DNA of 64,000 nucleotides. Origin: an uncultured beta proteobacterium (GTDB lineage Bacteria > Pseudomonadota > Gammaproteobacteria > Burkholderiales > Burkholderiaceae_C). The notes under the pieces are model-generated. The model made no database searches, was not told where the DNA came from, and saw only the letters and a program-made list of their open reading frames with translations. The position numbers and the translations under genes were made by a program. The stretch is taken from assembly GCA_903830985.1 (NCBI GenBank), contig CAIKVZ010000167.1, positions 1 to 64,000 of the forward strand. The letters run 5' to 3'. Below are positions 18,655-53,911 of this stretch, one piece after another. Within the stretch, counting starts at the first letter, position 1. The number at the start of each line of letters is the position of its first letter.

Positions 18655-19188
18655 ATGCACTTGAAGTTTTTCGCCCCCTTGTTCATCGCAGCCACGCTGG
18701 TCGCCTGCAGTTCCACCCCGCTGGACGCGCCGGTCAGCGTTGTCGCGCTGGCACCCGTGACGCCTCAAGTGCAGGCCGCAGAGCCGCCGCCCGCCGCCCA
18801 GTCGACCGTCAAGAGTGTGGTACTCCATCCCCTGGACGATCCGAAATCGGCGCTGGCCGGGCGCAGCATCTACTTTGATTACGACAGCTATGAAATCGCT
18901 CCGGGCGGGCGCACGCTGGTCGAGAGCCACAGCGCCTACCTGCGCAGCCACGCCAGCGCCTCCGTGCGGCTGGAAGGGCACGCCGACGAGCGTGGCGGAC
19001 GCGAATACAACCTGGCGCTGGGACAAAAGCGCGCCGATGCGGCACGCCGCGCTCTTGGCTTGCTGGGTGTGACCGAAAAGCAGATGGAATCCGTCAGCTT
19101 CGGCAAGGAAAAACCGGCCGACCCGGGCCACGACGAAGCCGCTTGGGCGAAGAACCGCAAGGCCGACGTCGCCTATCTGGCACGCTGA
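18655..19188 (+). CDS. OmpA-family (Pal-like) lipoprotein
   Basis: Lipobox-like LVAC|SS; IYFDYDSYEI...VRLEGHADERGGREYNLALGQKRADAARRAL OmpA C-terminal peptidoglycan-binding pattern. Confidence 0.87.
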   Translation: MHLKFFAPLFIAATLVACSSTPLDAPVSVVALAPVTPQVQAAEPPPAAQSTVKSVVLHPLDDPKSALAGRSIYFDYDSYEIAPGGRTLVESHSAYLRSHASASVRLEGHADERGGREYNLALGQKRADAARRALGLLGVTEKQMESVSFGKEKPADPGHDEAAWAKNRKADVAYLAR

Positions 19189-21219: not shown

Positions 21220-22166
21220 GTATTCTCGGCGTCATCTCCCAACTCATGGCCATCGCCGTGGCGCTGCTGTTGGCGCCGCTGATGACGGGCTGGGTGGCGC
21301 AGTGGCGCGCACGCCTGCAAAACAAATCGGCGCCGCCGCTGCTGCAGCCCTACCGCGTGCTGCACAAACTGTTCAACAAGGAATCGGTGCTGGCCGAACA
21401 CGCCTCGTCGCTGTTTCGCATGGCGCCGTATCTGATCTTTGGCTGCATGCTGCTGGCCTGCGCCATCATTCCCACGCTGTCCACGGACCTGCCGCTGTCG
21501 CCTGCGGCCGACGCGATCGCCCTGGTGGGGCTGTTCGCGCTGGCGCGGGTCTTCATCTCGTTGGCGGCGATGGACGTGGGAACGGCCTTCGGCACGCTGG
21601 GCGCGCGCCGCGAAATGCTGGTGGGCTTTCTGGCCGAACCGGCGCTGCTCATGGTGCTGTTTTGCGCCTCCATGATTTCGCGCTCGACCTCGCTCACCAC
21701 CATCGTGGAAACCCTGGCGCACCGCGAGTTGGCGATCTACCCGAGCCTGCTGGTGGCCGGCGTGGCTTTCGTCATGGTTTCGCTGGCGGAGAATGCGCGC
21801 GTGCCGGTGGACAACCCGGAGACACATCTGGAACTGACCATGATCCACGAGGCGCTGATCCTGGAGTATTCGGGCCGCCATCTGGCACTGCTGGAATGGG
21901 CTGCGAGCCTGAAGCTGTTCGCCTATTCCTGCATCGGGCTGGCGCTGTTCTTCCCCTGGGGCGTGGCGCAGGCCGACGCACCGCTGGCGCTGCTGCTGGC
22001 CCTGCCGGCACTGGTCGCCAAACTGGCCGTGGGCGGCGTGCTGCTGGCGGCGATCGAGACCGTCAGCGCCAAGATGCGCATCTTTCGCGTGCCTGAGTTT
22101 CTGGCCACGGCCTTTTTGCTGGCGGTGATCGGCCTGCTGGTGAACATCCTGCTGGGGACCACATGA
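21216..22166 (+). CDS. Complex 1: NuoH/HyfC-like membrane subunit (respiratory chain complex I subunit 1 family)
   Basis: ENARVPVDNPETHLELTMIHEALILEYSGRHLALLEWA; ATGA overlap with the upstream gene. Confidence 0.87.
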   Translation: MSILGVISQLMAIAVALLLAPLMTGWVAQWRARLQNKSAPPLLQPYRVLHKLFNKESVLAEHASSLFRMAPYLIFGCMLLACAIIPTLSTDLPLSPAADAIALVGLFALARVFISLAAMDVGTAFGTLGARREMLVGFLAEPALLMVLFCASMISRSTSLTTIVETLAHRELAIYPSLLVAGVAFVMVSLAENARVPVDNPETHLELTMIHEALILEYSGRHLALLEWAASLKLFAYSCIGLALFFPWGVAQADAPLALLLALPALVAKLAVGGVLLAAIETVSAKMRIFRVPEFLATAFLLAVIGLLVNILLGTT

Positions 22167-22822
22167 TCAAGCACCTGCCGCAGTTGATTAACCTGTTCGC
22201 CACGCTGATCCTGATGCTGTCTTTTGCCATGATCTCGCAGCGGCGCATCACCTCGCTCATCAACCTGTTCATGCTGCAGGGTGCTGCGCTGGTGGCGGCC
22301 TCGGTGCTGCTGGCCTATGTCACGGATCAACCGGACCTGTACGTTTCGGCGGGACTCACCCTGGCGCTCAAGGTGGTGCTCATTCCCTGGATGCTGCACC
22401 GCGTGATCCGCCGCCTCAACGTGCGCTGGGACGTGGAGACGCTGTTCAACATTCCCACCACCATGCTGGTGGGCATAGGCCTGGTGATCTTCTCCTTCAG
22501 CCTGGCCCAGCCGATTTCGCGCCTGTCGTCCTCCATGGCCGGCGGCTCGCTGGGCATTGCCCTGGCCTGCGTGCTGCTGTCCTTCATGATGATGATCACG
22601 CGCTCCAAGGCCGTGCCGCAGGTGATCGGCTTCCTGTCCATGGAAAACGGTCTGATCTTTGCCGCCACCACCGTCACCAACGGCATGCCGATGATCGTGG
22701 AATTTGGCATTGCCCTGGACGTGCTGGTGGGGGTGCTGATCCTGGGCGTGTTCATGTTCCAGATCCGGGAAAAGTTTGACAGCCTGGACATTCACAACCT
22801 CGAAGCGCTGAAGGAAGACTGA
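22163..22822 (+). CDS. Complex 1: HyfE-like (NuoK-related) membrane subunit
   Basis: Multi-TM; ITSLINLFMLQGAALVAASVLLAY...FLSMENGLIFAATTVTNGMPMIVEFGIALDVLVGVLILGVF; ATGA overlap. Confidence 0.83.
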   Translation: MIKHLPQLINLFATLILMLSFAMISQRRITSLINLFMLQGAALVAASVLLAYVTDQPDLYVSAGLTLALKVVLIPWMLHRVIRRLNVRWDVETLFNIPTTMLVGIGLVIFSFSLAQPISRLSSSMAGGSLGIALACVLLSFMMMITRSKAVPQVIGFLSMENGLIFAATTVTNGMPMIVEFGIALDVLVGVLILGVFMFQIREKFDSLDIHNLEALKED

Positions 22823-22824
22823 TC

Positions 22825-24285
22825 TTGTCGGCACTTTTTTTGCTCCTGGGAATTCCGCTGTTGGGTGCTGCCGCGCTGGCCGCGATCGGGCACTGGGCGG
22901 TGGCGCGCAACGTCAACGTGGCGTTCAGCCTGGGCACGTTTCTCGCCGCCTGCGTGCTGACAGCGCAGATCATTTCGGAGGGCCCGCAACTGCTCTGGGA
23001 GAAACAGTTCTTCATCGACCCGTTGAATGTTTTTCTGGTGACCCTCACCGCCTTTGTGGGACTCACCACGGCGATTTTTTCGCGCCCCTACATGCGCGTC
23101 GAGCAGGACCACGGCAAGATGACGCCGCGGCGCATGCGCCTGTACCACGGCATGTACCAGTTGTTCAGCTTCACCATGCTGCTGGCGCTGACCACGAACA
23201 ACCTCGGAATTTTGTGGGTGGCGATGGAGGCAGCCACGCTCACCACCGTGCTGCTGGTCAGCGTGTACCGCACGGCGGCGAGTCTGGAGGCAGCGTGGAA
23301 ATATTTCATCCTGTGCGGCGTCGGCATTGCGCAGGCCTTGTTCGGCACGGTGCTGCTCTACATGGCGGCCGAGAAGGTGCTGGGTACTCACGGAGCGACG
23401 CTGCTGTGGACCAGCCTGGACGCGGTCAAGGGCCAGCTTGATCCTGCCATCATCACCCTGGCCTTCGCCTTTTTGTTCATCGGCTATGGCACCAAGGTCG
23501 GCATGGTGCCGCTGCACAGTTGGCTGCCGGACGCCCACGCCGAAGGCCCGACGCCGGTCTCGGCCGTGCTCTCAGGTCTGCTGCTGAATGTGGCGATGTA
23601 CGCCGTGTTGCGCTGCAAGGTGCTCACCGATGGCGCCCTGCACACGGCCCTGGCCGGGCAGCTGATGATGGGCTTTGGCCTGCTTTCGGTGGTTGTGGCC
23701 TCGTTCTTCCTATCGCGGCAAAAAGACGTGAAGCGCATGTTCTCCTACTCGTCGATCGAGCACATGGGACTCATCACCTTTGCCTTCGGCATGGGTGGTC
23801 CGGTGGCCAACTTCGCCGGACTGCTGCACATGACGGCGCATTCGCTGGTCAAATCGGCCGTGTTCTTCACCGTGGGGCACGCCACGCAAAAGGCCGGCAC
23901 CCAGCTCATGAGCGAGATCCGCGGACTCATCAAGGTGAACCCGACCGTGGGCTGGGGCATGATGCTGGGCGTGATGGCGATCCTGGGCATGCCGCCCTTT
24001 GGCGTGTTTGCCAGTGAATTCCTGATCCTCACCACCGCCATGCGCGAACAGCCGTGGGCCACTCCGTTTCTGTTCCTGGCGCTGGGCGTGGCCTTTGCCT
24101 CCATGCTGATCCGCGTCCTGCCCATGGTGTTCGGCGAGACCACGCTCAAACCCCTGACCCATCCGCCCGCGCTGTTGCCGGTGTTTCTTCATCTGGCCCT
24201 GGCGCTGCTGCTGGGCCTGTACATCCCGCCCTATCTGAACGCCTGGTACGTGCAGGCCGCCAGTATGCTGGGAGGCGCACCATGA
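22825..24285 (+). CDS. Complex 1: HyfF-like proton-conducting transporter subunit (TTG start)
   Basis: MEAATLTTVLLVSVYRTAASLEAAWKYFILCGVGIAQALFGTVLL...GYGTKVGMVPLHSWLPDAHAEGPTPVSAVLSGLLLNVAMYAVLR. Confidence 0.87.
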   Translation: MSALFLLLGIPLLGAAALAAIGHWAVARNVNVAFSLGTFLAACVLTAQIISEGPQLLWEKQFFIDPLNVFLVTLTAFVGLTTAIFSRPYMRVEQDHGKMTPRRMRLYHGMYQLFSFTMLLALTTNNLGILWVAMEAATLTTVLLVSVYRTAASLEAAWKYFILCGVGIAQALFGTVLLYMAAEKVLGTHGATLLWTSLDAVKGQLDPAIITLAFAFLFIGYGTKVGMVPLHSWLPDAHAEGPTPVSAVLSGLLLNVAMYAVLRCKVLTDGALHTALAGQLMMGFGLLSVVVASFFLSRQKDVKRMFSYSSIEHMGLITFAFGMGGPVANFAGLLHMTAHSLVKSAVFFTVGHATQKAGTQLMSEIRGLIKVNPTVGWGMMLGVMAILGMPPFGVFASEFLILTTAMREQPWATPFLFLALGVAFASMLIRVLPMVFGETTLKPLTHPPALLPVFLHLALALLLGLYIPPYLNAWYVQAASMLGGAP

Positions 24286-25826
24286 AGATCCCCGGGCTGG
24301 AACTCGAACTGCAGCGCCTGGCGGCACCCGTGCCGATGTGGCATGGTCAGTTCGGTGCGGGCGAGTGGCGTGCCGTGGCCGCCAGCGTGCGCGAATCCGG
24401 TGGCCGTTTGCTGGCGCTGTGGGCGGGGCCGGGGGCGTGCAGCATCTGCGCTGCCTATGTCACACTGGACGGTCTGGTGTGGCTGGAATTGCCGCTGGCA
24501 GCGGGCCAGTCCGAGTACCCCGATCTGGCGGCCTTCTTCCCGGCGGCAGCGCGGATGCAGCGCGCTGCGGGTGACCTGTCGGGCGTGTTCGCGCAGGGCT
24601 CGTCGAATCAGTTGCCCTGGCTCAATCACGGCGCCTGGCCGGCCGAACATTTCCCGCTGGGCGCGGGTGCGGATGTCAGTCAACGCTTCCCGGAGTCAAG
24701 CCTGTCGGACTACCCCTTTGTGCGGGTGCAGGGCGATGGCGTGCACGAAATCGCCGTCGGCCCGGTGCACGCCGGAGTCATCGAGCCCGGTCACTTCCGC
24801 TTTTCCGTGGTCGGTGAAAAAGTGCTGCGCCTTGAGCAGCGCCTGGGCTACACGCACAAGGGCATCGAGCAGCGCTTCACGCAACTGCCGCCCTTGCAGG
24901 CGCACCGCCTGGCCGGACGCATTTCGGGCGATTCGACTGTGGCCTTCGCCTGGGCCTACTGCATGGCGCTGGAGAGCGCTGCGAACTGCGAGATCACGCC
25001 GCGCGCCGCCCACCTGCGCGCCCTGCTGCTGGAGCGCGAGCGCGTCGCCAACCACCTGGGCGACCTGGGTGCCCTGGGCAACGACGCGGCCTTTGCCTTC
25101 GGCCTGGCGCAGTTCTCGCGGTTGCGCGAAGACTGGTTGCGCCTGTCGCGGGAGCTGTTCGGCCACCGGCTGATGATGGACTGCGTGCTGCCCGGTGGCG
25201 TCAGCGTGGACCTGGATCGGCCCCAGGCCGAGCGCCTGCGCGCGCAATGCGACGCGGTCGAGCGCGAAGTGCGCACCCTGCAGCACATCTACGACGAACA
25301 CGCCGGTCTGCAGGACCGCTTCATGACCACGGGGCGCGTGCTGCCCGAACTGGCCGCGCGACTCGGCCTCACGGGGCTGGCCGGGCGCGCCAGCGGCCAG
25401 GCCTGCGACCTGCGCTGTGATCACGCCTTTGTGCCCTACGACGCGCTGCAGGTGAAGATGGCGACGCACCGCAACGGCGACGTGGCGGCGCGCGTGAGCT
25501 TGCGCTTTGAGGAAGTGCTGGAATCGCTGCGCCTGCTGCGTGCGCTGGTGGCCGATCTGCCGCAGGGCGTGGTGCAGGTTGAGGTGCCATTGCCGCAGCT
25601 GGCCAGCCGGGGTGCGGGTTGGGTTGAGGGCTGGCGCGGTGAAGTCTTTGTCGCGCTGGAGCTGGCCGGCGCCGCACAGGGGAACGCCATCCTGCGCTGC
25701 CATTGCCACGACCCGTCCTGGCAGAACTGGCCGGTGCTCGAGCACGCCATCATGGGCAATATCGTTCCGGACTTCCCGCTCATCAACAAGTCCTTCAACC
25801 TCAGCTATTCAGGGAGTGATCTCTGA
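24282..25826 (+). CDS. Complex 1: HyfG/NuoCD-like large subunit lacking NiFe ligands
   Basis: NuoC-like N-terminus then VHEIAVGPVHAGVIEPGHFRFSVVGEKVLRLEQRLGYTHKGIE. Canonical CxxC sites are replaced by RISGDSTVAFAWAYC and C-terminal NKSFNLSYSGSDL. Confidence 0.85.
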   Translation: MKIPGLELELQRLAAPVPMWHGQFGAGEWRAVAASVRESGGRLLALWAGPGACSICAAYVTLDGLVWLELPLAAGQSEYPDLAAFFPAAARMQRAAGDLSGVFAQGSSNQLPWLNHGAWPAEHFPLGAGADVSQRFPESSLSDYPFVRVQGDGVHEIAVGPVHAGVIEPGHFRFSVVGEKVLRLEQRLGYTHKGIEQRFTQLPPLQAHRLAGRISGDSTVAFAWAYCMALESAANCEITPRAAHLRALLLERERVANHLGDLGALGNDAAFAFGLAQFSRLREDWLRLSRELFGHRLMMDCVLPGGVSVDLDRPQAERLRAQCDAVEREVRTLQHIYDEHAGLQDRFMTTGRVLPELAARLGLTGLAGRASGQACDLRCDHAFVPYDALQVKMATHRNGDVAARVSLRFEEVLESLRLLRALVADLPQGVVQVEVPLPQLASRGAGWVEGWRGEVFVALELAGAAQGNAILRCHCHDPSWQNWPVLEHAIMGNIVPDFPLINKSFNLSYSGSDL

Positions 25827-26341
25827 TGTGGAACATCATTCGCCAGATCGCGCGCCACGGCATACGCAGTGAAGCGCCGCCGCTGGACCCGGACCTGGTG
25901 GGCGCCGAAACCGACCGGCTGCAGCGCGAATTGCTGGCGATTCTGGGCCGGGCTCTGGCGATCCGCCAGGTGGATGCGGGCTCGTGCAACGGCTGCGAAC
26001 TCGAGATCAACGCCCTGGGCAACCCCTACTACAACATCGAGGGTCTGGGCATCAAGTTTGTCGCCAGTCCGCGCCACGCCGACCTGCTGCTGGTCACCGG
26101 CCCGGTGTCGCGCAATATGGCGCAAGCCCTGCAGCGTACCTATGACGCCACACCCGACCCCAAGCTGGTCGTGGCCGTGGGCGACTGCGGCGCCGATGGC
26201 GGCATCTTTGGTGAGAGCTATGCCAGCTGCGGGCGCGTGGCCAACGTGATCCCGGTGGACTTTGTGGTGACGGGCTGCCCGCCAGCGCCGCTGGAGATCC
26301 TGCGCGGCATACTGCGCGCCGTGCAGCGCGGCAAAGCCTGA
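25826..26341 (+). CDS. Complex 1: NuoB/HyfI-like 4Fe-4S subunit
   Basis: QVDAGSCNGCELEINALGNPYYNIEGLGIKFVASPRHADLLLVTGPVSRNM...VGDCGADGG...TGCPPAPLEIL. Confidence 0.9.
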   Translation: MWNIIRQIARHGIRSEAPPLDPDLVGAETDRLQRELLAILGRALAIRQVDAGSCNGCELEINALGNPYYNIEGLGIKFVASPRHADLLLVTGPVSRNMAQALQRTYDATPDPKLVVAVGDCGADGGIFGESYASCGRVANVIPVDFVVTGCPPAPLEILRGILRAVQRGKA

Positions 26342-41684: not shown

Positions 41685-43922
41685 TCAGCCCTGCGCAGCG
41701 GCCAGGACCGCGTTGAAGGTCGCGCTGGGGCGCATGACGGCATTCATCTTCTTCAGGTCGGGCAAGTAGTAGCCACCGATGTCCGCAGGCTTGCCTTGCA
41801 CGGCCTTGAACTCTGCCGTGATCTTGGCCTCGTTCTCCTCCAGTGATTTCGCCAGGGGCGCGAAATGCGCTGCCAGTTCCTTGTCCTGCGTCTGCGCGGC
41901 CAGTTCCTGAGCCCAGTACATGGCCAGATAAAACTGGCTGCCGCGGTTGTCCAGCTGGCCGGTCTTGGGCGACGGGCCCTTGCTGTTGTCCAGCAACTTG
42001 CCCGTCGCCGAGTCCAGCGTCTTGGCCAGGATCGTCGCCTTGGTGTTGCCGGTCTTCAGGCCCAGGTCTTCCAGGCTGACGGCCAGCGCCAGGAACTCAC
42101 CCAGCGAATCCCAGCGCAGGTGGTTTTCTTCCACCAGTTGCTGCACGTGCTTGGGCGCAGAACCGCCGGCACCGGTCTCGTACATGCCGCCGCCGGCCAT
42201 CAGGGGCACGATGGACAGCATCTTGGCGCTGGTGCCCAGTTCCATGATGGGGAACAGGTCGGTCAGGTAGTCGCGCAGGATGTTGCCGGTGACCGAGATC
42301 GTGTCCAGGCCGCGGATCGCACGCTCCATGGTGTAACGGATGGCGCGCACCTGCGACATGATCTGGATGTCCAGGCCCGTGGTGTCGTGGTCCTTGAGGT
42401 AGGTGTGGACCTTCTTGATCAGCTCGTTTTCGTGCGGGCGATACGGGTCCAGCCAGAACACGGCCGGCATGCCGGAGTTGCGCGCGCGCGTCACGGCCAG
42501 CTTGACCCAGTCGCGGATGGCCGCGTCTTTGGCCTGGCACATGCGCCAGATGTCGCCCTGTTCCACGTTCTGTGTCAACAGCACTTCACCCGTTGCGATG
42601 TCGGTGATGTTGGCCACGCCGTCTTCAGGCATCTCGAAGGTCTTGTCGTGCGAGCCATACTCTTCGGCCTGCTGTGCCATCAGTCCCACGTTGGGCACGG
42701 TGCCCATGGTGCGCGGATCAAAGTTGCCGTTCCATTTGCAGAAGTTGATCATCTCCTGGTAGATGCGGGCGAAGGTGCTCTCCGGCATCACCGCCTTGAC
42801 GTCCTTCAAGCGGCCGTCCGCGCCCCACATCTTGCCGCCGTTGCGGATCATGGCCGGCATGGACGCGTCGACGATGATGTCGTTGGGCGAGTGGAAATTG
42901 GTGATGCCCTTGGCCGAGTCCACCATCGCCAGTTCGGGGCGGTGCTCGTGGCAGGCGTGCAGGTCCGCGATGATCTCCTCGCGCTGCGACTGCGGCAGGG
43001 TGGCAATCTTGTCGTACAGGTTGATCATGCCGTTGTTCACGTTCACGCCCAACTGGTCGAACAGCTTGGCGTGTTTCTCGAACGCGTCCTTGTAGAAGAT
43101 GCGCACGCAGTGACCGAAGACGATGGGGTGCGAGACCTTCATCATCGTGGCCTTGACGTGCAGCGAGAACATCACGCCGGTCTTGTGCGCGTCTTCGATC
43201 TCTTTCTCATAGAACTCCAGCAGCGCCTTCTTGCTCATGAACATGCTGTCGATGATCTCGCCGGCGAGCAGTTTGGTCAGGGGCTTGAACACGATGGTCT
43301 TGCCGCCTTTGGTGATCAACTCCATCTTCACGTCGCGCGCCTTGTCCAGCGTCAGGGACTTCTCACCGTGGTAGAAGTCGCCATGGTGCATGTGCGAGAC
43401 GTGGCTGCGCGATGCCTGGCTCCAGTCGGCCATGGAGTGCGGGTGCTTGCGGGCATAGTTCTTCACGGCCAGGGGGGCACGGCGGTCCGAGTTGCCCTCG
43501 CGCAGCACGGGGTTCACCGCGCTGCCGATGCAGCGGGCGTAGCGGGCGCGGATGGCCTTGTCGGCGTCGGTCTTGGGATCTTCCGGATAGTCGGGAACGG
43601 CATAGCCCTTGGACTGCAGTTCCTTGATGCAGGCGATGAGCTGGCCCACGGAAGCGCTGATGTTGGGCAGCTTGATGATGTTGGTGTCTGGCAGGTGCGT
43701 CAGTCGGCCCAGTTCGGCCAGGTTGTCGGGCACCTTTTGGGCGTCGGTCAGGTATTCGGGGAAATCGGCCAGCACCCGGGATGCGACCGAGATGTCGCAC
43801 TCGGCCACGTCAACGCCAGCGGGCGCGGCAAAGGTTCGAATCACCGGCAGAAACGCCGAGGTCGCCAGCAGCGGCGCTTCGTCTGTCAAGGTGTAGATGA
43901 TTTTTGCAGTTTCAGCAGTCAT
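41685..43922 (-). CDS. icd: NADP-dependent isocitrate dehydrogenase, monomeric type
   Basis: [51 protein letters not shown]...[32 protein letters not shown]; about 745 aa. Confidence 0.95.
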
Positions 43923-44105
43923 GGTGTCCTTCGTCTCTTGGGTGGTTGTGGTGGCGAAATGATTCGTGGGCGATGTTAAACCGTTCACTCAGGCCGGCCT
44001 GCATGTTATAGGCTTCGTACCTGTTGTTTTTGACGCAGGTCATGGTTGCGTTCCGGCAAGCTGCCCGGTGGTGTTGAATTCAGGGCCTGCATCGGGCGCC
44101 AGGGT

Positions 44106-44861
44106 TCAACGGTCACTGGCGATGCCCAGCAGGTCCAGTATCCCGCAAACGAAGCTCAGCGGATGCGCCGGGCAGCCCGGGACGTAAAGCGTGGGAACCA
44201 CGCGGTCCAAAAAGCTGCGGTCCAGCGCCGGCGAGCCGGCAAAGGCTCCACCGGAGATGGCGCAGGCGCCCACCGCGATCAGGAAGCGGGGTTCGGGCAT
44301 GGCGTCCCAGCACTGCTGCAGCGCGTCCTGCATGTGGCGTGTGATGGGGCCCGACAGCACCAGTGCGTCGGCGTGGCGCGGCGAGGCCACGATGTCGATG
44401 CCGTAGCGCCCCAGGTCGAAATTCACGTTCGACAGCGCGTTGATCTCCAGTTCACAGCCGTTGCAGCCACCGGCCGACACCGAGCGCAGCTTCAGCGAAC
44501 GGCCAAAGCGTAGTCGCAGCGCGGCCGAGACCTGGATCGGGTCCGGTGCCAGGCGCTGCGCGCTCACCACCAGCGCCGCACGGTCAGTGCCGGCGATGCG
44601 GTAGTTGGCGTTGAAGCTGATTTTTTGGCTCGGGCACACTGGCGCGCAGTCGCCGCACAGCACGCAGCGCCCCAGATCAATGCGCAGGGGCGTCAAGGCA
44701 ATCGCGTCGGTCGGGCAGACCGCAAGACAGGCGCTGCAGCCGACACCGCAATCCACCGCGGAAATCAGCGGCGCGCCACGCAGGCCAGTGGGTTGCGCTT
44801 GGCGCGGATCGGGGATGTACTGTTTCCCCTGGGAAATTCTGACGGCAATGGCGTTAAACAT
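44106..44861 (-). CDS. Complex 2: fused 2x[4Fe-4S] ferredoxin (HyfH-like) + NuoB/HyfI-like subunit
   Basis: CGVGCSACLAVCPTDAIAL and CVLCGDCAPVCPSQ followed by SVSAGGCNGCELEINALSNVNFDLGRYGIDIVASPRHADALVLSGPITRHM...VGACAISGGAF...PGCPAHPLSFV. Confidence 0.9.
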   Translation of the reverse strand: MFNAIAVRISQGKQYIPDPRQAQPTGLRGAPLISAVDCGVGCSACLAVCPTDAIALTPLRIDLGRCVLCGDCAPVCPSQKISFNANYRIAGTDRAALVVSAQRLAPDPIQVSAALRLRFGRSLKLRSVSAGGCNGCELEINALSNVNFDLGRYGIDIVASPRHADALVLSGPITRHMQDALQQCWDAMPEPRFLIAVGACAISGGAFAGSPALDRSFLDRVVPTLYVPGCPAHPLSFVCGILDLLGIASDR

Positions 44862-44938
44862 CAGTGCTCATTTTACGTTTGGGTCACGGCGCTACCATCG
44901 GTGCTTGCAAGCCTTTGCCAACCCTTAAGCACAACACC

Positions 44939-45250
44939 ATGGCCACCCCAAGAACAACGATGAAGGGCTTTCACTGCTGGGACGGTGACACCCTGGTGCT
45001 GAACATCCTGGGCACGCCCTCGGCCTCCCGGGACGCCATCGGCAAGGTCAAGGGCCAGCAACTCAAGGTCAGTGTCACCGAAGCGCCCAAGGCCGGACGC
45101 GCCACGGACCACATGGTGAAGTTTCTGGCCGGCGAATTCGAGGTGGCGCGCTCCGACATCGAGGTCGTTTTCGGCCGAATGAACATCAACAAGCAGCTTC
45201 GCATCAAGGCGCCCAAACGGCTGCCGGACTGCATTGAACCCAAGCCTTAG
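44939..45250 (+). CDS. DUF167 (YggU-like) family protein
   Basis: MATPRTTMKGFHCWDGDTLVLNILGTPSASRDAIGKVKGQQLKVSVTEAPKAGRATDHMVKFLAGEFEVARSDIEVVFGRMNINKQLRI. Confidence 0.83.
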   Translation: MATPRTTMKGFHCWDGDTLVLNILGTPSASRDAIGKVKGQQLKVSVTEAPKAGRATDHMVKFLAGEFEVARSDIEVVFGRMNINKQLRIKAPKRLPDCIEPKP

Positions 45251-45266
45251 TGCCAGCGGGGCTTTA

Positions 45267-46745
45267 CTAGAGGTCATTGCCGCAATAGGAGAGATCGAAA
45301 CTCTTGTTGCAGATCGGGAAATCCGAGATCGCGTTGTTTCGCATGCACAGGGCCAGGCCAAACCAGTTCTTCAGCGACGGGTCCTGCAGCTTGCAGTGAG
45401 CCAGGCGCCCGGCAGCGTCGGTTTCCAGCACCTGCACGACTTCGCCGCGAAAGCCCTCGGTCAGTGAAATGCACAGCGCTTCGGGCTGCAGGGGGGTGTT
45501 GGCCGCCAGCAGTTCTGTCGCGCGCAGGTCCAGATCGGGTTCTTTCAGGACCTGGTTCAGCCAGACCACCGAGGCGTCGATTTCCCGCATGCGCAGTTCG
45601 GTGCGTGACCAGCAGTCGCCGTCCAACCCGGTCAGCAACGGGATCGGTCGGGCCTGAAAAAGGCGACCGGGCAGTTCGGTACGCGTGTCGATGGCGACGC
45701 CGCTGGCGCGTGCCACCAGCCCCACCAAGCCCAGGCCCAGGGCGTCGGCCTGGCTGATGACACCCACGCCCTGAAAGCGCGCCCGCACGCTGCGGGATTC
45801 GTGCATCAGCCGGTTCACCTGCGCCAGGTCCGTGGCAAAGGCGCTCAGGGTGACGAGCAGGTCCTGGCGCAATTCATCGTCAATGCCAATACGCACGCCG
45901 CCGGGACGCAGCCAGCCGCGGCCAAAGCGGCTGCCGCAGGCGCGCATGGAAGCGTTGATGATGGCGGTGCGCAGGCGCCCGTAGCTGGCGCCACCCTGCA
46001 GGAAAGCAATGTCCGTGGCCAGGCCGCCGAGCGATGCCAGGTGCATGGCCACGCGCTCCAACTCCAGCGCCACGCCGCGAACCCGTTCCACTGCCGGGTC
46101 GACAGCATGGCCGGCGAGGGCTTCGATGGCCGCGCAATGGCCCCAGGCGTAGGCGACGCTGGAGTCGCCCACCACGGTCTCGATGGTCGAAGTCTGGGAC
46201 AGGGGCGCACGCTGCAGCAGCAGCGCCTCCACGCCCCTGTGCTGGTAGCCGAGCTGGATTTCCAGGTGCTGCACTTCTTCGCCCAGGCACTGGAAGCGGA
46301 AATGACCAGGCTCGATCACGCTGGCGTGGATCGGGCCCACGCCCACCTCGTGCAGTTCCTGGCCGCGCATGTGGAAGAACGGGTAGTCGGCCATGGCCTG
46401 CTGGCGCACGCCCGCAAAGCGCACGGGTTTGAGCCAGGGGTGACCGGTGGGCGTGAGCCCGGTCTGCTCCCACAATTCGCGCTCCAGCATCTGCACGGCG
46501 GGAAAAAGCGCGGTGAGCGACGGGTAGGAGTTGCCGACCGGGCCACAGCCGCGCAGCACGCTCAAGGCGCCGTTTGGCCCCAGCAGCACGGCCGTGGTGA
46601 TGACCTCGGTGTGCGCCGGGCGGCCATACAGCGTCAGCATGCGCTCGCCCGCGCTCAGGCGTTGCGCGCAGGCATCGGCCCAGGCCGCCAGAGGCTCGGG
46701 CCGGAGGTCAGCAGTTGGCAGCAGCAAGACCGGTTCACCCATCAT
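45267..46745 (-). CDS. Complex 2: HyfG/NuoCD-like large subunit lacking NiFe ligands
   Basis: LHEVGVGPIHASVIEPGHFRFQCLGEEVQHLEIQLGYQHRGVE; canonical sites replaced by ETVVGDSSVAYAWGHC and C-terminal NKSFDLSYCGNDL. Confidence 0.85.
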   Translation of the reverse strand: MMGEPVLLLPTADLRPEPLAAWADACAQRLSAGERMLTLYGRPAHTEVITTAVLLGPNGALSVLRGCGPVGNSYPSLTALFPAVQMLERELWEQTGLTPTGHPWLKPVRFAGVRQQAMADYPFFHMRGQELHEVGVGPIHASVIEPGHFRFQCLGEEVQHLEIQLGYQHRGVEALLLQRAPLSQTSTIETVVGDSSVAYAWGHCAAIEALAGHAVDPAVERVRGVALELERVAMHLASLGGLATDIAFLQGGASYGRLRTAIINASMRACGSRFGRGWLRPGGVRIGIDDELRQDLLVTLSAFATDLAQVNRLMHESRSVRARFQGVGVISQADALGLGLVGLVARASGVAIDTRTELPGRLFQARPIPLLTGLDGDCWSRTELRMREIDASVVWLNQVLKEPDLDLRATELLAANTPLQPEALCISLTEGFRGEVVQVLETDAAGRLAHCKLQDPSLKNWFGLALCMRNNAISDFPICNKSFDLSYCGNDL

Positions 46746-48169
46746 TGGCCTCCAATCGACTGCGCCACCTGCACCAGCAGGCGGCTGATGGGGTCGGGCG
46801 TGTACACGCCCAGCAGCACCAGCACCAGCACGAAGCCCAGTTTGGGCAGGGTCGTGACCCAGGACTCGTGGACCTGCCCACCGCTGCGGTTCGACGCGCC
46901 CCACAGCATGGGGAAGATGGAGCGTCCGGTGGCGACGAAGATGATGGTCAGCATGGTGCACATCAGGCTGAAGGCCATCATGTTGCCGGCCTGCACGATG
47001 CCCGACAGGATCAGCATCTCGGCCAGAAAACTGCCAAAGGGCGGGAAACCGAGCAGGGCAAAAACGCCCACCGCGAACATCAGCCCGGAGAAGGGCAGGA
47101 CGCGAATCACGCCGCTCAGCGCCCGGATTTCGTTCGTGCCGTAAACCGCGCGCAGCCGTCCCGCCGTGAGGAACAGCAGGGCCTTGACGAAGGCGTTGCT
47201 CACGATGTAGAGCAGCACGCCGTAGGCTGCGGCCTTGCCCACCGACAGGCCGATGGCGATCACGCCGGATGAGCTGACGCAGGCGTAGGCCACAAGCCGC
47301 TTGTAGCTGCGCGCCGCCATCACCTGCACGGCGGCCACGACCAGCGACAAACAACCCATGAGCAGCAGCTCGTGCGACACGAAGCCCGGATCCTGGCCGC
47401 GAAAGATGTGCAGGATGCGAAACACCGCCACCACACTGATGTTGAACTGGATGGCGGCGAGCAGGGCGCTGGTGCTGGTGGGCGCTGCCTCGTAGGTGGC
47501 GGGCATCCAGTTGTACAGGGGCGCCAGGCCCAGCTTGGACCCGAGGCCAAACAGCATCAGCGCCAAGCCCAGGCGCTGCCAACTGTCGCCCACCACAGGC
47601 AGGCCGCGCGCCATCAGGTCCAGCGCGAAATTCATTTCCAGCCCATGCAGGTGGGCGGAGCGCGTCAGGCACATGATGCCCAGAAAGGTCAGCGCCAGCG
47701 AGATGCTGGAGTACAGCAGGTAGCTCCAGGCGACGCGCCGCGGAGCGATGGCGTCACCCTGCGCCACCAGCGGCGCGGCACACAGCGTGGTGAGCTCGAT
47801 GAATGCCCACAGCAGCAGCAGGTTGTTTGCCATCACGCCCAGGTTCATGGCCAGCATGAAGGCCAGCGTGAGACCGGTGCGGCTCGCCATGTGGCTGGCC
47901 AATGTTTGTGAGGTGTTGACGCGAGAGGCCATGTACACGCTGATCCCTAAGAACACGCTGTTGATCACCAGCAGGAACAGCATGGAGGTGGCGTCAAGCA
48001 CGAAGTAGCGCCTGCCAAAGTACAGCGGCATGTCGCTCAGGGGCGTCTGCACGAAGACGCCGATCCAGCACAGCAGATTCACCAGCGCGATGGCCACCAG
48101 CGTCGGCCCAACCCAGCGGTGGTGCAGTTCGCTGTGCAGCGGCGCGTCCATGACTTCGGTCGAACTCAT
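46742..48169 (-). CDS. Complex 2: HyfF-like proton-conducting transporter subunit
   Basis: LLLLWAFIELTTLCAAPLVAQGDAIAPRRVAWSYLLYSS...FGLGSKLGLAPLYNWMPATYEAAPTSTSALLAAIQFNISVVAVFRI; start at MSSTEVMDAPLHSELHH. Confidence 0.85.
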   Translation of the reverse strand: MSSTEVMDAPLHSELHHRWVGPTLVAIALVNLLCWIGVFVQTPLSDMPLYFGRRYFVLDATSMLFLLVINSVFLGISVYMASRVNTSQTLASHMASRTGLTLAFMLAMNLGVMANNLLLLWAFIELTTLCAAPLVAQGDAIAPRRVAWSYLLYSSISLALTFLGIMCLTRSAHLHGLEMNFALDLMARGLPVVGDSWQRLGLALMLFGLGSKLGLAPLYNWMPATYEAAPTSTSALLAAIQFNISVVAVFRILHIFRGQDPGFVSHELLLMGCLSLVVAAVQVMAARSYKRLVAYACVSSSGVIAIGLSVGKAAAYGVLLYIVSNAFVKALLFLTAGRLRAVYGTNEIRALSGVIRVLPFSGLMFAVGVFALLGFPPFGSFLAEMLILSGIVQAGNMMAFSLMCTMLTIIFVATGRSIFPMLWGASNRSGGQVHESWVTTLPKLGFVLVLVLLGVYTPDPISRLLVQVAQSIGGQ

Positions 48170-48747
48170 TGGGTCTCCTCGCGCGCGGCGATCAGCCACC
48201 CACCCACGCCCACGGTCAGCAGGTAGATGCCGCTCAGGGCGGCGTGCACCGGCAGCGGCCAGGGTTCGGGCAGCAGGGACTCGAACAGTGCCAGCGCGTT
48301 CTCCAGAAACAGCAGGGCCACGAGCTGCGCCGGCGGTGCGCTGTTGGTGGACAGCAGCAGCAAGGCCACGGCCACGGTCGCGCCGATGACGCCCAGGGTC
48401 AGTGCCTGCGCGTCGCTCATGCTGGGCGCGCCGAACTGGAAGGCCAGCACCAGCAACGCACTGGCCACGACCCAAGTGAAGAGGTTGGACGGCATCAGGT
48501 CGAGGTTGGGCTCAGCGCGCAGCCGGATGGCGCGGCGCAGCAGCCAGGGCGCCAGCAGCGTGCGCAGCACCAGCACTTCGGCCAGCGCGCCCAGGGTGTG
48601 GGCCGACAGTTCGCTGCTGCGCATCCAGCCGTTCCAGGCCAGGGCCAGTGCCTGCACGGCCAGCCACACGGGCGCGGCGCGCAGCTTGCTGAAGAACACC
48701 GGCAGCACCACGGCGACGAGGAACAAGACCAGGGGCAGCGACGCCAT
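48166..48747 (-). CDS. Complex 2: HyfE-like membrane subunit
   Basis: Multi-TM MASLPLVLFLVAVVLPVFF...LVALLFLENALALFESLLPEPWPLPVHAALSGIYLLTVGVGGWLI; position and coupling match the HyfE slot. Confidence 0.72.
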   Translation of the reverse strand: MASLPLVLFLVAVVLPVFFSKLRAAPVWLAVQALALAWNGWMRSSELSAHTLGALAEVLVLRTLLAPWLLRRAIRLRAEPNLDLMPSNLFTWVVASALLVLAFQFGAPSMSDAQALTLGVIGATVAVALLLLSTNSAPPAQLVALLFLENALALFESLLPEPWPLPVHAALSGIYLLTVGVGGWLIAAREETQ

Positions 48748-49664
48748 CAGGACCTCACCGTCCAGCCTGCTGCCAGCAGGCACAGCGCCGCCAGCAGCGA
48801 GGCCAGCATCAGGTAACGCGGCACCTGGCGCATCGGCAGGCGCGCCACCAGCGATTCGATGCATCCCAAGGTCACGGCCACCGTGGCCATGATGAGCAAT
48901 GCGGCCAGCAGGCTGAACGCCGGCGCAACAGTTGCGTCCACGGGATTGAGCAGCGCCGCGATGAGTCCCGCGTAGACCGTCATCTTCAGTGCGGCGGCGT
49001 ACTGCATGGCGGCGAGCTCCGGGCCGCTGTGGTCCAACACCATGACCTCGTGCACCATGGTCAGCTCCAGATGGGTCAGCGGGTCATCCACCGGAACTCT
49101 CGATGCTTCAGCCTGCAGCAGGATGAACAGCACCATGACGGCGGGCCAGGCCAGCCCGAAGAAGGCCGGGCTGTCCTGCAACTGCACCAGAAGCGCGGCG
49201 AAGCTGGTCTGGTGCGTGGCCACGGCGGCCGCACCCAGCAGCAGAAAAAGCGCCGGCTCGACGAACGCGGTGAAGGAGGCCTCGCGCGCGCTGCCCATGC
49301 CCTCGAAGGAACTGCCCACGTCCATGGCCGAGAGCATCAGGAAGATGCGCGCCAGGCCCAGCGTGTAGGCGAACAGGATGAAGTCGAAATCGAATTGCAG
49401 CGGCGCGAACTGCCCGACGATGGGGGCGATCAGTGCCGCCAGCAGCGAGGCCACGAGCACCACCCAGGCGCCGGCGCGAAACAGCGGCGTGCTCGCCGCG
49501 CTGAACACCGGGCGTTTGTGCAGCAGGCGCAGCAGGTCCCACAGCGACTGCCACAGGCCCGGACCTTTGCGACCGGCCCACAGCGACTTGGTGCGATTCA
49601 CCAGGCCCACCAGCAAAAAGGGCATGAGCAGCACGATGGCCACATGGGCGACAGTCAACATCAT
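48747..49664 (-). CDS. Complex 2: NuoH/HyfC-like membrane subunit
   Basis: EASRVPVDDPLTHLELTMVHEVMVLDHSGPELAAMQYAAALKM; internal ATG within ORF 48747..51062. Confidence 0.87.
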   Translation of the reverse strand: MMLTVAHVAIVLLMPFLLVGLVNRTKSLWAGRKGPGLWQSLWDLLRLLHKRPVFSAASTPLFRAGAWVVLVASLLAALIAPIVGQFAPLQFDFDFILFAYTLGLARIFLMLSAMDVGSSFEGMGSAREASFTAFVEPALFLLLGAAAVATHQTSFAALLVQLQDSPAFFGLAWPAVMVLFILLQAEASRVPVDDPLTHLELTMVHEVMVLDHSGPELAAMQYAAALKMTVYAGLIAALLNPVDATVAPAFSLLAALLIMATVAVTLGCIESLVARLPMRQVPRYLMLASLLAALCLLAAGWTVRS

Positions 49665-51655
49665 GGCAGCGGCCCCGCTGTCAGCACCACCAGACCGCCG
49701 AGCAGCACGATGAACAGCAGCGTCGCGCCAAAGGCGATGCGCGGATCGTCCTCGTGCAGGCGCTGCGAGAGCTCGTTGGCCGAGGCGTCGCCGTGCGCCA
49801 CGACCGAAAACAGCCGGCGTTCCACCGCGTCCACGCAGTCGGTGATGACGTAGCCGTCGGTCGGGAAATAGCCGGTTGGCGCTTTTTGGCGGCGCAGCAT
49901 CACCAGCACGCCGCGAAAGCGCGCGCTGAAGTCCCAGGAAAAACTGGCAGCCGTGTACTGCATGCGTGCGCTGGGCAGGGCGTAGCCGCAACCCCAGGTG
50001 GGCTGGGTCGGCGCCGGTGTGGCGCGCGAGCGCAGCCACAGGATCAGTCCCACGAGCATTGCCAATGACCCTGAAATCAGGCCGATGCGTGTCAGGCTGT
50101 CGCTGATCGGCTGCAGCATGTCGGGGCGGCCTGGCGGCAGCAGGGCCAGGGCAATTTCCGCCGAACCTCGCACCAGCATGAAACCCAGCACCGGCAGTAC
50201 GCCGAGCAGCATCACCCCGGCCGAATGCACTCCCATGGGCAGCAGCATCCAGCGGCTCACCTCCGATGGTGGATGCACGGTGGGGTCGCGCGGGCTGCCC
50301 AGAAAGATCACGCCAAAGGCGCGCGTGATGCTCAAAGCCGAGACCGCGCCGACAAAGGCCAGTACGGCAGCGACCGCGCACAGTGCCACCTGCGCGCCGG
50401 TGCTGGTGGCGCCGCGGAACAGGCCGGAGTAGATGACGAATTCGCTGGTGAAGCCGTTCAGCGGCGGCAGCGCCGAGATTGCCACGCCGCCGAGCAGAAA
50501 GCTCGCCGCGGTCCAGGGCATGAGGCGCGCCAGGCCGCCCAGCCGCTCCAGGTCCACCGTGTGCGTGGCCTGGTACACGGCGCCGGCGGCATAGAACAAC
50601 TGGCATTTGAAGAAGGCGTGGTTCAGCAGGTGCAGCAGCCCGCCGGCAAAACCCAGCGCCACCAGGGCCGGCTGGTCCCAGGACAGGCCCAGACAGCCCA
50701 CGCCAAAACCGATGCCGGCGATGCCGACGTTTTCTGTGGAGGAGTAGCCGAGCAGGCGCTTCAGGTCGCGCTGGCTCACGGTGTAGAGCGCACCCACCAG
50801 GGCCGACAGGGCACAAAAGCCGATCAGGAACCAGCCCATCCAGGCGTCGGGTTTGCCGATCAAAAAGATGAAGCGCAGCAGGGCGTACAGCCCGGCCTTG
50901 TGGATCACGCCCGACATCAGCGCCGAGACATGGGCAGGGGCTGCGGCGTGGGCACGCGGCAGCCAGGAGTGGAAGGGGAAGAACGCCGACTTCAGGCCGA
51001 AGCTGGCCACCAGCAGCAGGAACACCAGGTTGCGTTCGGAGCCGCCATGGCTGCGCAGCCACAGGCCGAAGCTGGCCAGTTCCCAGGAGGCGGAATGCGC
51101 GTACATGGTCATGAAGGCCGCGACCAGAAAGATCAGCCCGATGTGCGTGGACACCAGGTAGTTGAAGCCGGCAAAGCGCACCTTCTGGTTGGTGTAGTCC
51201 CAGATCACCAGCAGCCAGGCGGCCAGCGCGGCGATCTCCCAGCCCAGCAGGAACACCAGCGCGTGCTCTGCGGTGTAGACCAGGATGAAGGACAGCGAGG
51301 TCAGGTTCAGCAGTGCGTAATGCACGCCCAGATGGCGCGTGCTGTCAAAGTGTTTGCGCATGTAGCCCACCGCGTACACGCTGCCCAGCAGCGTCATGGG
51401 CAGGGACCAGGCCAGGAAGAAGGCGCCCAGCGCATCCAGGCGCACGCGCAAGGTGCCCACCGGATAGGCCCAGGCGAGTTCGCCCGTGAGCACGCTGCCA
51501 TGGAACAGCACCGGTGCCAATGTGCTCCAGACCAGGGCCGTGGCCAGCGCTTGCGACAGCACGCCGATGGACGCGCGTGTGGCATTGCGCAGCGGCAGCA
51601 AACAGGCTCCCGCGCCCAGCAGCAGTACAAGGACGGCGCTGAGCAGGGCGTTCAA
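49661..51655 (-). CDS. Complex 2: HyfB/NuoL-like proton-conducting membrane subunit
   Basis: FLLGWEIAALAAWLLVIWDYTNQKVRFAGFNYLVSTHIG...FGLKSAFFPFHSWLPRAHAAAPAHVSALMSGVIHKAGLYALLRF. Confidence 0.88.
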   Translation of the reverse strand: MNALLSAVLVLLLGAGACLLPLRNATRASIGVLSQALATALVWSTLAPVLFHGSVLTGELAWAYPVGTLRVRLDALGAFFLAWSLPMTLLGSVYAVGYMRKHFDSTRHLGVHYALLNLTSLSFILVYTAEHALVFLLGWEIAALAAWLLVIWDYTNQKVRFAGFNYLVSTHIGLIFLVAAFMTMYAHSASWELASFGLWLRSHGGSERNLVFLLLVASFGLKSAFFPFHSWLPRAHAAAPAHVSALMSGVIHKAGLYALLRFIFLIGKPDAWMGWFLIGFCALSALVGALYTVSQRDLKRLLGYSSTENVGIAGIGFGVGCLGLSWDQPALVALGFAGGLLHLLNHAFFKCQLFYAAGAVYQATHTVDLERLGGLARLMPWTAASFLLGGVAISALPPLNGFTSEFVIYSGLFRGATSTGAQVALCAVAAVLAFVGAVSALSITRAFGVIFLGSPRDPTVHPPSEVSRWMLLPMGVHSAGVMLLGVLPVLGFMLVRGSAEIALALLPPGRPDMLQPISDSLTRIGLISGSLAMLVGLILWLRSRATPAPTQPTWGCGYALPSARMQYTAASFSWDFSARFRGVLVMLRRQKAPTGYFPTDGYVITDCVDAVERRLFSVVAHGDASANELSQRLHEDDPRIAFGATLLFIVLLGGLVVLTAGPLP

Positions 51656-51674: not shown

Positions 51675-53822
51675 TCAGCGAACGCGCATGCCGGGTTGGG
51701 CGCCAGGTCCCGGGTTCAGGATGTAGATGCCGGGTTGGGCTTTTTCATTCGCTGCGCTGGCCGCCAGCACCATGCCCTGGCTGATGCCAAACTTCATCTT
51801 GCGCGGCGCCAGATTCGCCACCAGCACGGTCAACTGACCGATCAGCTGTTCCGGCTGGTAGCTGGAGGCTATGCCGCTGAACACGTTGCGCGTGATGGCG
51901 ATGCCCTGATCATCAACGCCTTCGCCCACGTCCAGCGTCAACTGCAGCAGCTTGGTCGAGCCCTCCACCTTTGCGCATTGCACGATCTTCGCGATGCGCA
52001 GGTCGATCTTGGCGAAGTCGTCGATCGAGATGGTGGGCGCGAAGGCTTCGCCGCCGGGCAGCTTGGGCCCGACTTGTTCATGCTCGGTGGCCACGCCGCT
52101 GTGCGTTGCTTGGGGCAGTGAGGACGCGCCAGCGCCGACCGTGGGGGCAGCACTTTGCGCAGGTGCCTCAAACAAAGCTTCGAGCTGCTTGATGTCGACG
52201 CGCTGCATCAGGTGCTGGTAGTCGCCGATGGCGTGGCCCAGGCCCAGGGGTTGCGCCGCTGCGGACCAGTCCATTGCGGGGATGTTCAGGAAGGCCTCCA
52301 CCTGCGCCGCCAGTGTTGGCAGCACGGGCTTGAGGTAGAGCGCGAGCAGACGGAAGGATTCGATGCAGACGCTGCAGACGTCGTGCAGGCGCGCCTCCAT
52401 GCCTTCCTTTTTTGCCAGCTCCCAGGGCTTGTTCTGGTCCACGTATTCGTTCACGCGGTCCGCCAGCAGCATGATTTCGCGCAGCGCGCGGCCGTATTCG
52501 CGGGTTTCGTAGCACTGCTGCAGCTCTTCGTTCTTGGCGCGCACGATGTCCAGCAGGCCCGCGCCGTCGGGCGAGATCGCGCCGAGTTGGCCGCCGAAGC
52601 GCTTGCTCAGGAATCCTGCGGCACGGCTGGCGATGTTGATGAACTTGCCCACCAGGTCGGAGTTCACGCGCTGCATGAAGTCTTCCGGGTTGAAGTCGAT
52701 GTCTTCATTGCGCGCGTTGAGCTTGGCGGCGATGTAGTAACGCAGCCACTCGGGGTTCATGCCCAGTTCCAGGTACTTCAGCGGGTTCAGCCCGGTGCCG
52801 CGGCTCTTGCTCATCTTCTCGGCGTTCACCGTGAGGAAGCCGTGCACGAAAATGGCGTTGGGCGTCTTGCGCCCGCTGAAATGCAGCATCGCCGGCCAGA
52901 ACAGGGTGTGAAAAGTGATGATGTCCTTGCCAATGAAATGGTACTGCTCGGTTGCGGGGTCGGCCATGAAGGCGTCGTAGTCCACGCCTATTTTCCCCAA
53001 GTAGTTCTTCAGCGAGGCCAGGTAGCCTATGGGCGCGTCCAGCCAGACGTAGAAGTACTTTCCCGGCGCGTCCGGAATCTCGATGCCGAAGTAGGGCGCG
53101 TCGCGGCTGATGTCCCAGTCGCCCAGGTCCCGAACCCCGTCCTCGTTCGGTGTGAGCCACTCCTTGATCTTGTTGTAGACCTCGGTTTGCAGATGGCCTT
53201 CTTCCTGGGTCCATTGCTCCAGAAAAGCCAGGCAGCGCGGGTCCGACAACTGGAAGAAGTAATGCTCTGAATTGCGCAACACGGGCGTGACGCCGCTGAG
53301 CGCCGAGTACGGGTCCTTCAGGTCGGTGGGGGCATAAACCGCACCGCAGACTTCGCAGTTGTCGCCGTACTGCTCCTTGGCAGCACATTTGGGGCACTCG
53401 CCCTTGATGAAGCGGTCGGGCAGGAACATCTGCTTTTGCGGATCGAAGAACTGCTCGATGGTCTTGGTTTTGATCAGTCCCGCGCTGCGCAGGTCGCGGT
53501 AGATGGCCTGCGCCAACTCGTGGTTTTCCACGCCGTCGGTGGAATGCCAGTTGTCAAAACCGATGTGAAAACCGTCCAGGTACTGCTTGCGGCCGGCGGC
53601 GATGTCGGCGACGAACTGCTGCGGCGTTTTTTCGGCCTTTTCCGCCGCGATCATGATCGGCGCGCCATGCGCGTCGTCGGCGCAGACGAAATGCACCACG
53701 TTGCCCGCCATGCGTTGGTGCCGCACCCAGATGTCGGCCTGGATGTACTCCATCATGTGGCCGATGTGGAAGCCAGCGTTGGCGTAGGGCAGGGCGGTGG
53801 TGACGAAGAGTTGGCGTGGCAT
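51675..53822 (-). CDS. metG: Methionine--tRNA ligase
   Basis: [57 protein letters not shown]...[10 protein letters not shown] and a C-terminal tRNA-binding domain. Confidence 0.96.
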
Positions 53823-53865
53823 GCGGGGGCGGCTTTCAGAAACGGACTTTGATTTTAGTCCCCGT

Positions 53866-53895
53866 GGGTTCTTGGCGTCTGACCCCCAAGAACCC
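53866..53895. repeat. Hairpin gggttcttgg / ccaagaaccc, followed by dispersed 14-mer gctcgcaatgacga (53896-53909)
   Basis: Perfect 10-bp stem; the adjacent 14-mer is identical to 7624-7637. Confidence 0.65.
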
Positions 53896-53911
53896 GCTCG
53901 CAATGACGAGA

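Follow-up and report, generated by a model that had tools for sequence, protein, structure and literature searches.

A conserved ferredoxin-NuoB fusion marks a clade of energy-converting hydrogenase-related complexes in Burkholderiales and other phyla

The energy-converting hydrogenase-related (Ehr) complexes are a published class whose function is unsolved (PMC6349859, PMC10284858, PMC7894505), with examples in Geobacter (GSU0739-0745), in Margulisbacteria and Melainabacteria and in comammox Nitrospira. A Hyf-like set of subunits, a large subunit without the NiFe cysteines and antiporter-like subunits in the operon are common to them and to a six-gene locus, here called complex 2, on the minus strand of a 64,000-nucleotide stretch of DNA (the window; contig CAIKVZ010000167.1) from an uncultured beta proteobacterium of the Burkholderiales. 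Melainabacteria, Lentisphaerae and Spirochaetes are likewise common to published Ehr and to the clade of complex 2, and judging by its subunit features and this overlap of taxa, complex 2 belongs to the Ehr complexes. Unlike the published Ehr, however, its clade has a ferredoxin fused to the NuoB-like subunit, a large-subunit signature of its own and, in several phyla, adjacent SulP and EIIA genes. We read complex 2 as a ferredoxin-fused Ehr that would act as a membrane-bound, complex-I-like, redox-driven ion pump no longer handling H2, and give this reading about even chances.

Three better known systems are related to complex 2. MBH and Mbx of Pyrococcus have been described as fed by ferredoxin, and MBS is a group 4 relative with a changed active site. 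All three (6cfw, 6u8y) resemble complex 2 as group 4 relatives with antiporter-like subunits, but have another gene set, in which the ferredoxin subunit is separate. Hydrogenase-4 and formate hydrogenlyase (Hyf, Hyc; 7z0s) contain the closest, or nearly the closest, structural relatives of B, C, G and I and share the proton-path residues, whereas complex 2 has no Ni ligands, HycB, FdhF or C-terminal processing tail, and HycF and HycG are one protein. Respiratory complex I (Nuo) is homologous in the NuoB, D, H and L/M/N cores and in the E-channel, but its NADH module (NuoE/F/G) occurs neither in the complex 2 operon nor in recurring flanks.

The first-pass annotation of this DNA had placed a second full Hyf set on the minus strand, and all six genes (open reading frames between 44106 and 51655) were located there in the order B-C-E-F-G-(H-I). 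Pfam and NCBIfam models identify Proton_antipo_M in B and F, NADHdh in C, Complex1_49kDa/30kDa in G, and Oxidored_q6 plus 4Fe-4S in the fusion gene, while HyfE of the window has no Pfam match. PDB searches point to E. coli formate hydrogenlyase and to MBH of Pyrococcus as the nearest solved structures. The features are as follows.

49661-51655, minus strand: HyfB/EhrA-like antiporter-like subunit, 664 amino acids, TTG start (PF00361, E=1e-51; best PDB match HycC, 7z0s_C, E=4e-53)
48747-49664, minus strand: HyfC/EhrB-like, NuoH-like membrane subunit, 305 amino acids (PF00146, E=3e-27; HycD, 7z0s_D, E=2e-16)
48166-48747, minus strand: HyfE/EhrC-like small membrane subunit, 193 amino acids (from position, a homologous open reading frame in relatives and a conserved Glu)
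46742-48169, minus strand: HyfF-like antiporter-like subunit, 475 amino acids (PF00361, E=6e-37; NuoN/MbhH-like PDB matches)
45267-46742, minus strand: HyfG/EhrL large subunit without Ni ligands, 491 amino acids (PF00346, E=7e-33; HycE, 7z0s_E, E=4e-28)
44106-44861, minus strand: HyfH-HyfI (ferredoxin-NuoB) fusion, EhrS-like, 251 amino acids (Pfam, NCBIfam and PDB matches, AlphaFold2)
44936-45250, plus strand: yggU/DUF167 gene, outside the complex (PF02594, E=5e-20)
19201-26341, plus strand: complex 1, for comparison, a paralogous set (B-C-E-F-G-I) that lacks a ferredoxin subunit

Aligned with HycE, HyfG has V191-G-D-S194 in place of the first CxxC and S485-Y-C-G488 in place of the last, and all four NiFe ligands are lost. 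The motifs by which the replaced CxxC and the changed end had first been recognised, ETVVGDSSVAYAW and NKSFDLSYCGNDL, are both present in HyfG of the window, but its C-terminus (...CNKSFDLSYCGNDL) holds two cysteines rather than the single one described: C478, directly before NKSF, and C487. In an alignment of 82 relatives C478 is 95% conserved, being missing in a few of them, and C487 is variable; C152 is invariant (100%) in the complex 2 clade and absent from complex 1. The clade can be recognised by the signature E(S/T)xxGD(S/T) ... FPxCNKSF(D/N)LSYxGxDL, followed by a stop codon. HyfG ends at the position where HycE is cut on maturation, and therefore has no tail to process. The window's own genome does have the maturation gene HypD, but 4 of 11 near-complete carrier genomes lack it, so complex 2 can do without NiFe maturation. 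Both CxxC pairs of a [NiFe] group 4 hydrogenase are thus absent, and the Hyp machinery is not found in every host.

The surroundings of the former metal site have been kept. The second-shell residues E144, H234, R345, E387 and R432 of HyfG are 96-100% conserved, and in our own alignment they correspond to Glu193 (E144), His284 (H234), Arg395 (R345), Glu437 (E387) and the canopy Arg (R432), the proton-transfer residues of E. coli formate hydrogenlyase (PMC9474812). In the membrane subunits, whose antiporter Glu/Lys residues and HyfC glutamate network were counted in 71-78 relatives, E140, K222, K253, K350 and E405 of HyfB (71 relatives) and the E-channel residues E121, E128, E136, E186, E200 and E206 of HyfC are 99-100% conserved, E149 of HyfE is 97% conserved, and E125, K212, K329 and E384 of HyfF are conserved as well. 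Since the ion-channel, proton-path and NuoB cluster residues have all been preserved, complex 2 appears to be a functional ion pump driven by a redox reaction; to judge from its residues, it is not a hydrogenase, and has retained a redox pocket, a proton path, membrane channels and an Fe-S wire. The same conservation bears on the view that complex 2 is a decaying hydrogenase relic without function. The Ehr of Geobacter has been called already nonfunctional in strain KN400 (PMC13194489), but Geobacter does produce Ehr proteins, which respond to the electron donor (PMC7894505), and in the clade of complex 2 the operon order is kept and more than 40 large-subunit positions, clade-specific motifs included, are at least 99% conserved over about 13 phyla among the matches listed. 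We regard a relic as extremely improbable. In one relative (L103) the HyfG gene seems to be split over two frames, possibly by a frameshift in the metagenome-assembled genome (MAG).

The two-cluster ferredoxin that had been read at the start of the terminal, NuoB-like subunit is confirmed by its domains and by all eight cysteines. An N-terminal helix (residues 2-11) is followed by two 4Fe-4S motifs (C38-C49 and C66-C76) and by a NuoB domain with C133, C136, C200 and C230. In the nine closest sequences aligned, the ferredoxin domain has the pattern CX3CX2CX3CP ... CX2CX2CX3CP, the CX3C spacing marking the first cluster motif, and 8 of 8 cysteines are invariant; the NuoB cluster cysteines are nearly invariant in 54 sequences. 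AlphaFold2 predicts a two-domain fold for the fusion with a predicted local distance difference test score (pLDDT) of 94.8 and a predicted template modelling score of 0.90 when 54 diverse homologues are the input. Among the best 50 PDB matches found by Foldseek, single chains cover the NuoB half only (best 7z0s_G, 36% identity over 162 alignment columns). The ferredoxin half resembles HycF/NuoI (NF009053, PDB 7z0s_F, 6cfw_N), and HycF likewise has an N-terminal helix (PMC9474812). The fusion accordingly joins two subunits that stand separate in formate hydrogenlyase. It had been taken to suggest a chemistry different from that of complex 1, a reading that may be unnecessary: the fused domain corresponds to the ordinary, elsewhere separate HycF/HyfH, and it is complex 1 that stands out by having no such subunit. 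The fusion may do no more than make the usual HycF/HyfH subunit of group 4 complexes permanent.

Relatives were collected from one genome per species, and the best 80 loci were kept. All 80 carry an intact fusion of 244-319 amino acids, and the B-C-E-F-G-I order is kept across the genera compared; an assembly or sequencing fusion, the artefact against which the first-pass annotation had cautioned, is therefore ruled out. An in-frame TGA seen in three relatives proved to be no more than the normal stop at the C-terminal end of the gene. Close homologues occur in 10 of the 301 genomes of the window's family (6 of 141 genera), with one more carrier in another family. The best 80 loci come from Burkholderiales, Myxococcota, Planctomycetota (including a MAG labelled Kuenenia), Fibrobacterota, Nitrospirota, Calditrichota, Ignavibacteriota, Bacteroidota, Spirochaetota, Lentisphaerota, Verrucomicrobiota, Cyanobacteriota/Melainabacteria and FCPU426, a span of about 13 phyla among the matches listed. 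Extensimonas perlucida, Piscinibacter caeni, Aquabacterium humicola and Stygiobacter electus are carriers recorded as strains and not as MAGs. A Lentisphaeria MAG has two tandem EIIA-Ehr operons of the complex 2 clade on the same contig (L108 and L121).

In a tree of large subunits, the relatives of complex 2 form one clade (Shimodaira-Hasegawa-like approximate likelihood ratio test support 99), which is sister to complex 1 (96); HycE, MbhL and NuoD fall outside it, MBH standing apart from the Ehr clades. As the tree comes from a quick search and its outgroup branches are long, its deep joins are uncertain. It agrees with the earlier distinction between two NiFe-less complexes: the large subunit of complex 1 is also of Ehr type, with SGDS and NKSFNLSYSGSDL, but shares only 36% identity with HyfG of complex 2. 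The fused variant is both real and ancient. A different Burkholderiales Ehr family (L045, L046, L047, L048 and probably L049; G045, G161, G190, G277 and probably G010) has the order C-E-F-G-(fusion)-B and likewise a ferredoxin-NuoB fusion, but another large subunit, which ends in ...NEASFGL(S/T)xAGxDR. The fusion therefore either predates the split and was lost in complex 1, or evolved twice.

If complex 2 is a pump, reduced ferredoxin or a similar low-potential donor would deliver electrons to the fused two-cluster ferredoxin domain, from which they would pass through the NuoB 4Fe-4S cluster to an acceptor in what was once the NiFe pocket of HyfG. This redox step would be coupled, via the conserved glutamate path and HyfC, to the movement of H+ or Na+ by B and F (with E). 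Run in reverse, the complex could use an ion gradient to drive ferredoxin reduction. Donor, direction and coupling ion are what we infer here, and a membrane quinone, our first guess for the acceptor, is possible but rather doubtful.

Several observations weigh against this reading. The quinone-site His38 and Tyr87 of complex I (Thermus thermophilus numbering) are replaced in HyfG by I143 and G192, which leaves a quinone acceptor without sequence support. The fusions of L132, L134 and L138 have lost the cysteines of the first ferredoxin cluster, retaining the second and the NuoB cluster, so the first is not essential everywhere. Homologues of ferredoxin-type 2-oxoacid oxidoreductases (PF01855, E<1e-45) are present in 10 of 11 carriers, but PF01855 includes enzymes that possibly do not use ferredoxin, and ferredoxin as the donor is therefore only plausible. 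Finally, the functional reading of the whole fused clade is drawn from sequences.

The gene neighbourhood offers a further lead. Flanks were clustered by sequence, and selected flank proteins were scanned with Pfam. A SulP transporter gene is adjacent to the operon in 11 loci of Ignavibacteriota/Bacteroidota, Spirochaetota, Planctomycetota and Myxococcota, six cases from Ignavibacteriota/Bacteroidota being close relatives and counted as one. It follows the fusion gene by 19 bp in L088 (the Kuenenia-labelled planctomycete MAG), overlaps it in L128 (Kapaibacterium), stops about 40 bp short of B in L090 (another planctomycete), and precedes the EIIA gene in the Ignavibacteriota/Bacteroidota. Carrier genomes have 0-5 SulP matches each, so few that adjacency in several lineages is very unlikely to be due to chance. 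The possibility that the SulP group arose as a clustering artefact was ruled out, as Pfam confirmed 6 of 6 members tested, L093 included. In 19 loci from other phyla, the gene immediately upstream of B is of the PTS_EIIA_2 type and codes for an N-terminal helix-turn-helix (18 of the 60 loci with visible upstream DNA).

These neighbours allow for an alternative in which a ferredoxin-driven pump serves anion transport: its gradient or pH change would energise SulP-mediated uptake of bicarbonate, C4-dicarboxylate or sulfate under the control of a PTS-EIIA-type regulator, and Burkholderiales would use an unlinked SulP. The recurrence of both genes is in favour, as are DauA, SulP and BicA as the nearest SulP models, none of them matched above its equivalog cut-off. 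Nevertheless, the EIIA gene is upstream in 0 of 20 Pseudomonadota loci, SulP is never beside the operon in the Burkholderiales loci, that of the window among them, and two carriers lack SulP genes altogether, and we therefore consider this role unlikely. A CO2-concentrating role meets a further difficulty in that 4 of 11 carriers have no RuBisCO or one that is not typical, and on this ground a link to CO2 fixation in Burkholderiales was rejected.

Other partners were sought in the flanks. Electrons could come from a soluble formate dehydrogenase, making complex 2 a formate-oxidising pump without H2, as has been proposed for the Ehr of Margulisbacteria and Geobacter (PMC6349859); in Geobacter sulfurreducens every Ehr subunit increases on formate (PMC7894505). 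However, formate dehydrogenase, NuoE/F or another oxidoreductase was not seen to recur in the flanks of the 80 loci and of the Burkholderiales carriers, and the linked formate dehydrogenase and HycB-like second ferredoxin subunit of a formate hydrogenlyase are found neither in the operon nor in recurring flanks of the 80 loci; a formate-fed pump appears improbable. In a third alternative, the pocket would reduce sulfane sulfur or polysulfide, or hand electrons to NAD(P), as in Pyrococcus. MBS sets a precedent for a changed site in a group 4 relative, and the pocket region of the clade holds the new conserved C478 as well as C152, but C478 is not universal, and a gene for sulfur metabolism or a flavoprotein NAD(P)-binding gene was not seen to recur near the 80 loci. 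This, too, we judge quite improbable.

Within Burkholderiales, no recurring partner gene was seen beside the operon except complex 1. The latter adjoins complex 2 in 10 loci (L055, L056, L061, L067, L068, L070, L073, L074, L075 and L078) from 9 distinct strains, L056 and L074 being from the same strain, in both relative orientations, and lies 18 kb away in the window. The adjacency suggests joint function or joint transfer, but the link cannot be obligatory, as 4 of 11 carriers have no complex 1, and dependence on complex 1 is ruled out. Directly upstream of complex 1 is a gene judged by eye to encode an OmpA/Pal-like lipoprotein (18655-19188, plus strand).

Complex 2 itself is flanked by metG (51675-53903) and icd (41685-43988), and its six-gene block is interrupted by the yggU/DUF167 gene, which separates G from the fusion gene. 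In relatives of the same genus G overlaps the fusion gene directly and yggU/DUF167 is not at that place, so it looks like a local insertion in the window genome. The fusion gene of the window, cut off in this way, may now need read-through or a promoter of its own.

The Ehr class as such is already known, and what appears to be new is the defined fused clade with its SulP and EIIA neighbours. Fusion and SulP go unmentioned in the main text of PMC6349859, and a literature search of incomplete coverage found no ferredoxin-NuoB fusion or SulP-Ehr operon, which is weak evidence of novelty. Of the new leads to Ehr function the SulP link is the chief one, although the lineage of the window lacks it. 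It is conceivable, though decidedly unlikely, that the fused Ehr clade is a separate multi-phylum respiratory complex coupling ferredoxin oxidation to SulP uptake of bicarbonate or dicarboxylate, with the PTS-EIIA protein as its DNA-binding regulator; if true, the SulP-coupled fused Ehr would be the ferredoxin-driven equivalent of inorganic-carbon pumps built on NuoL, DAB being an example. For years Ehr complexes have drawn notice without a known reaction; one sharply conserved fused clade is now defined and two genetic neighbours are supplied, and these neighbours, together with carriers available as strains, make the role of Ehr testable.

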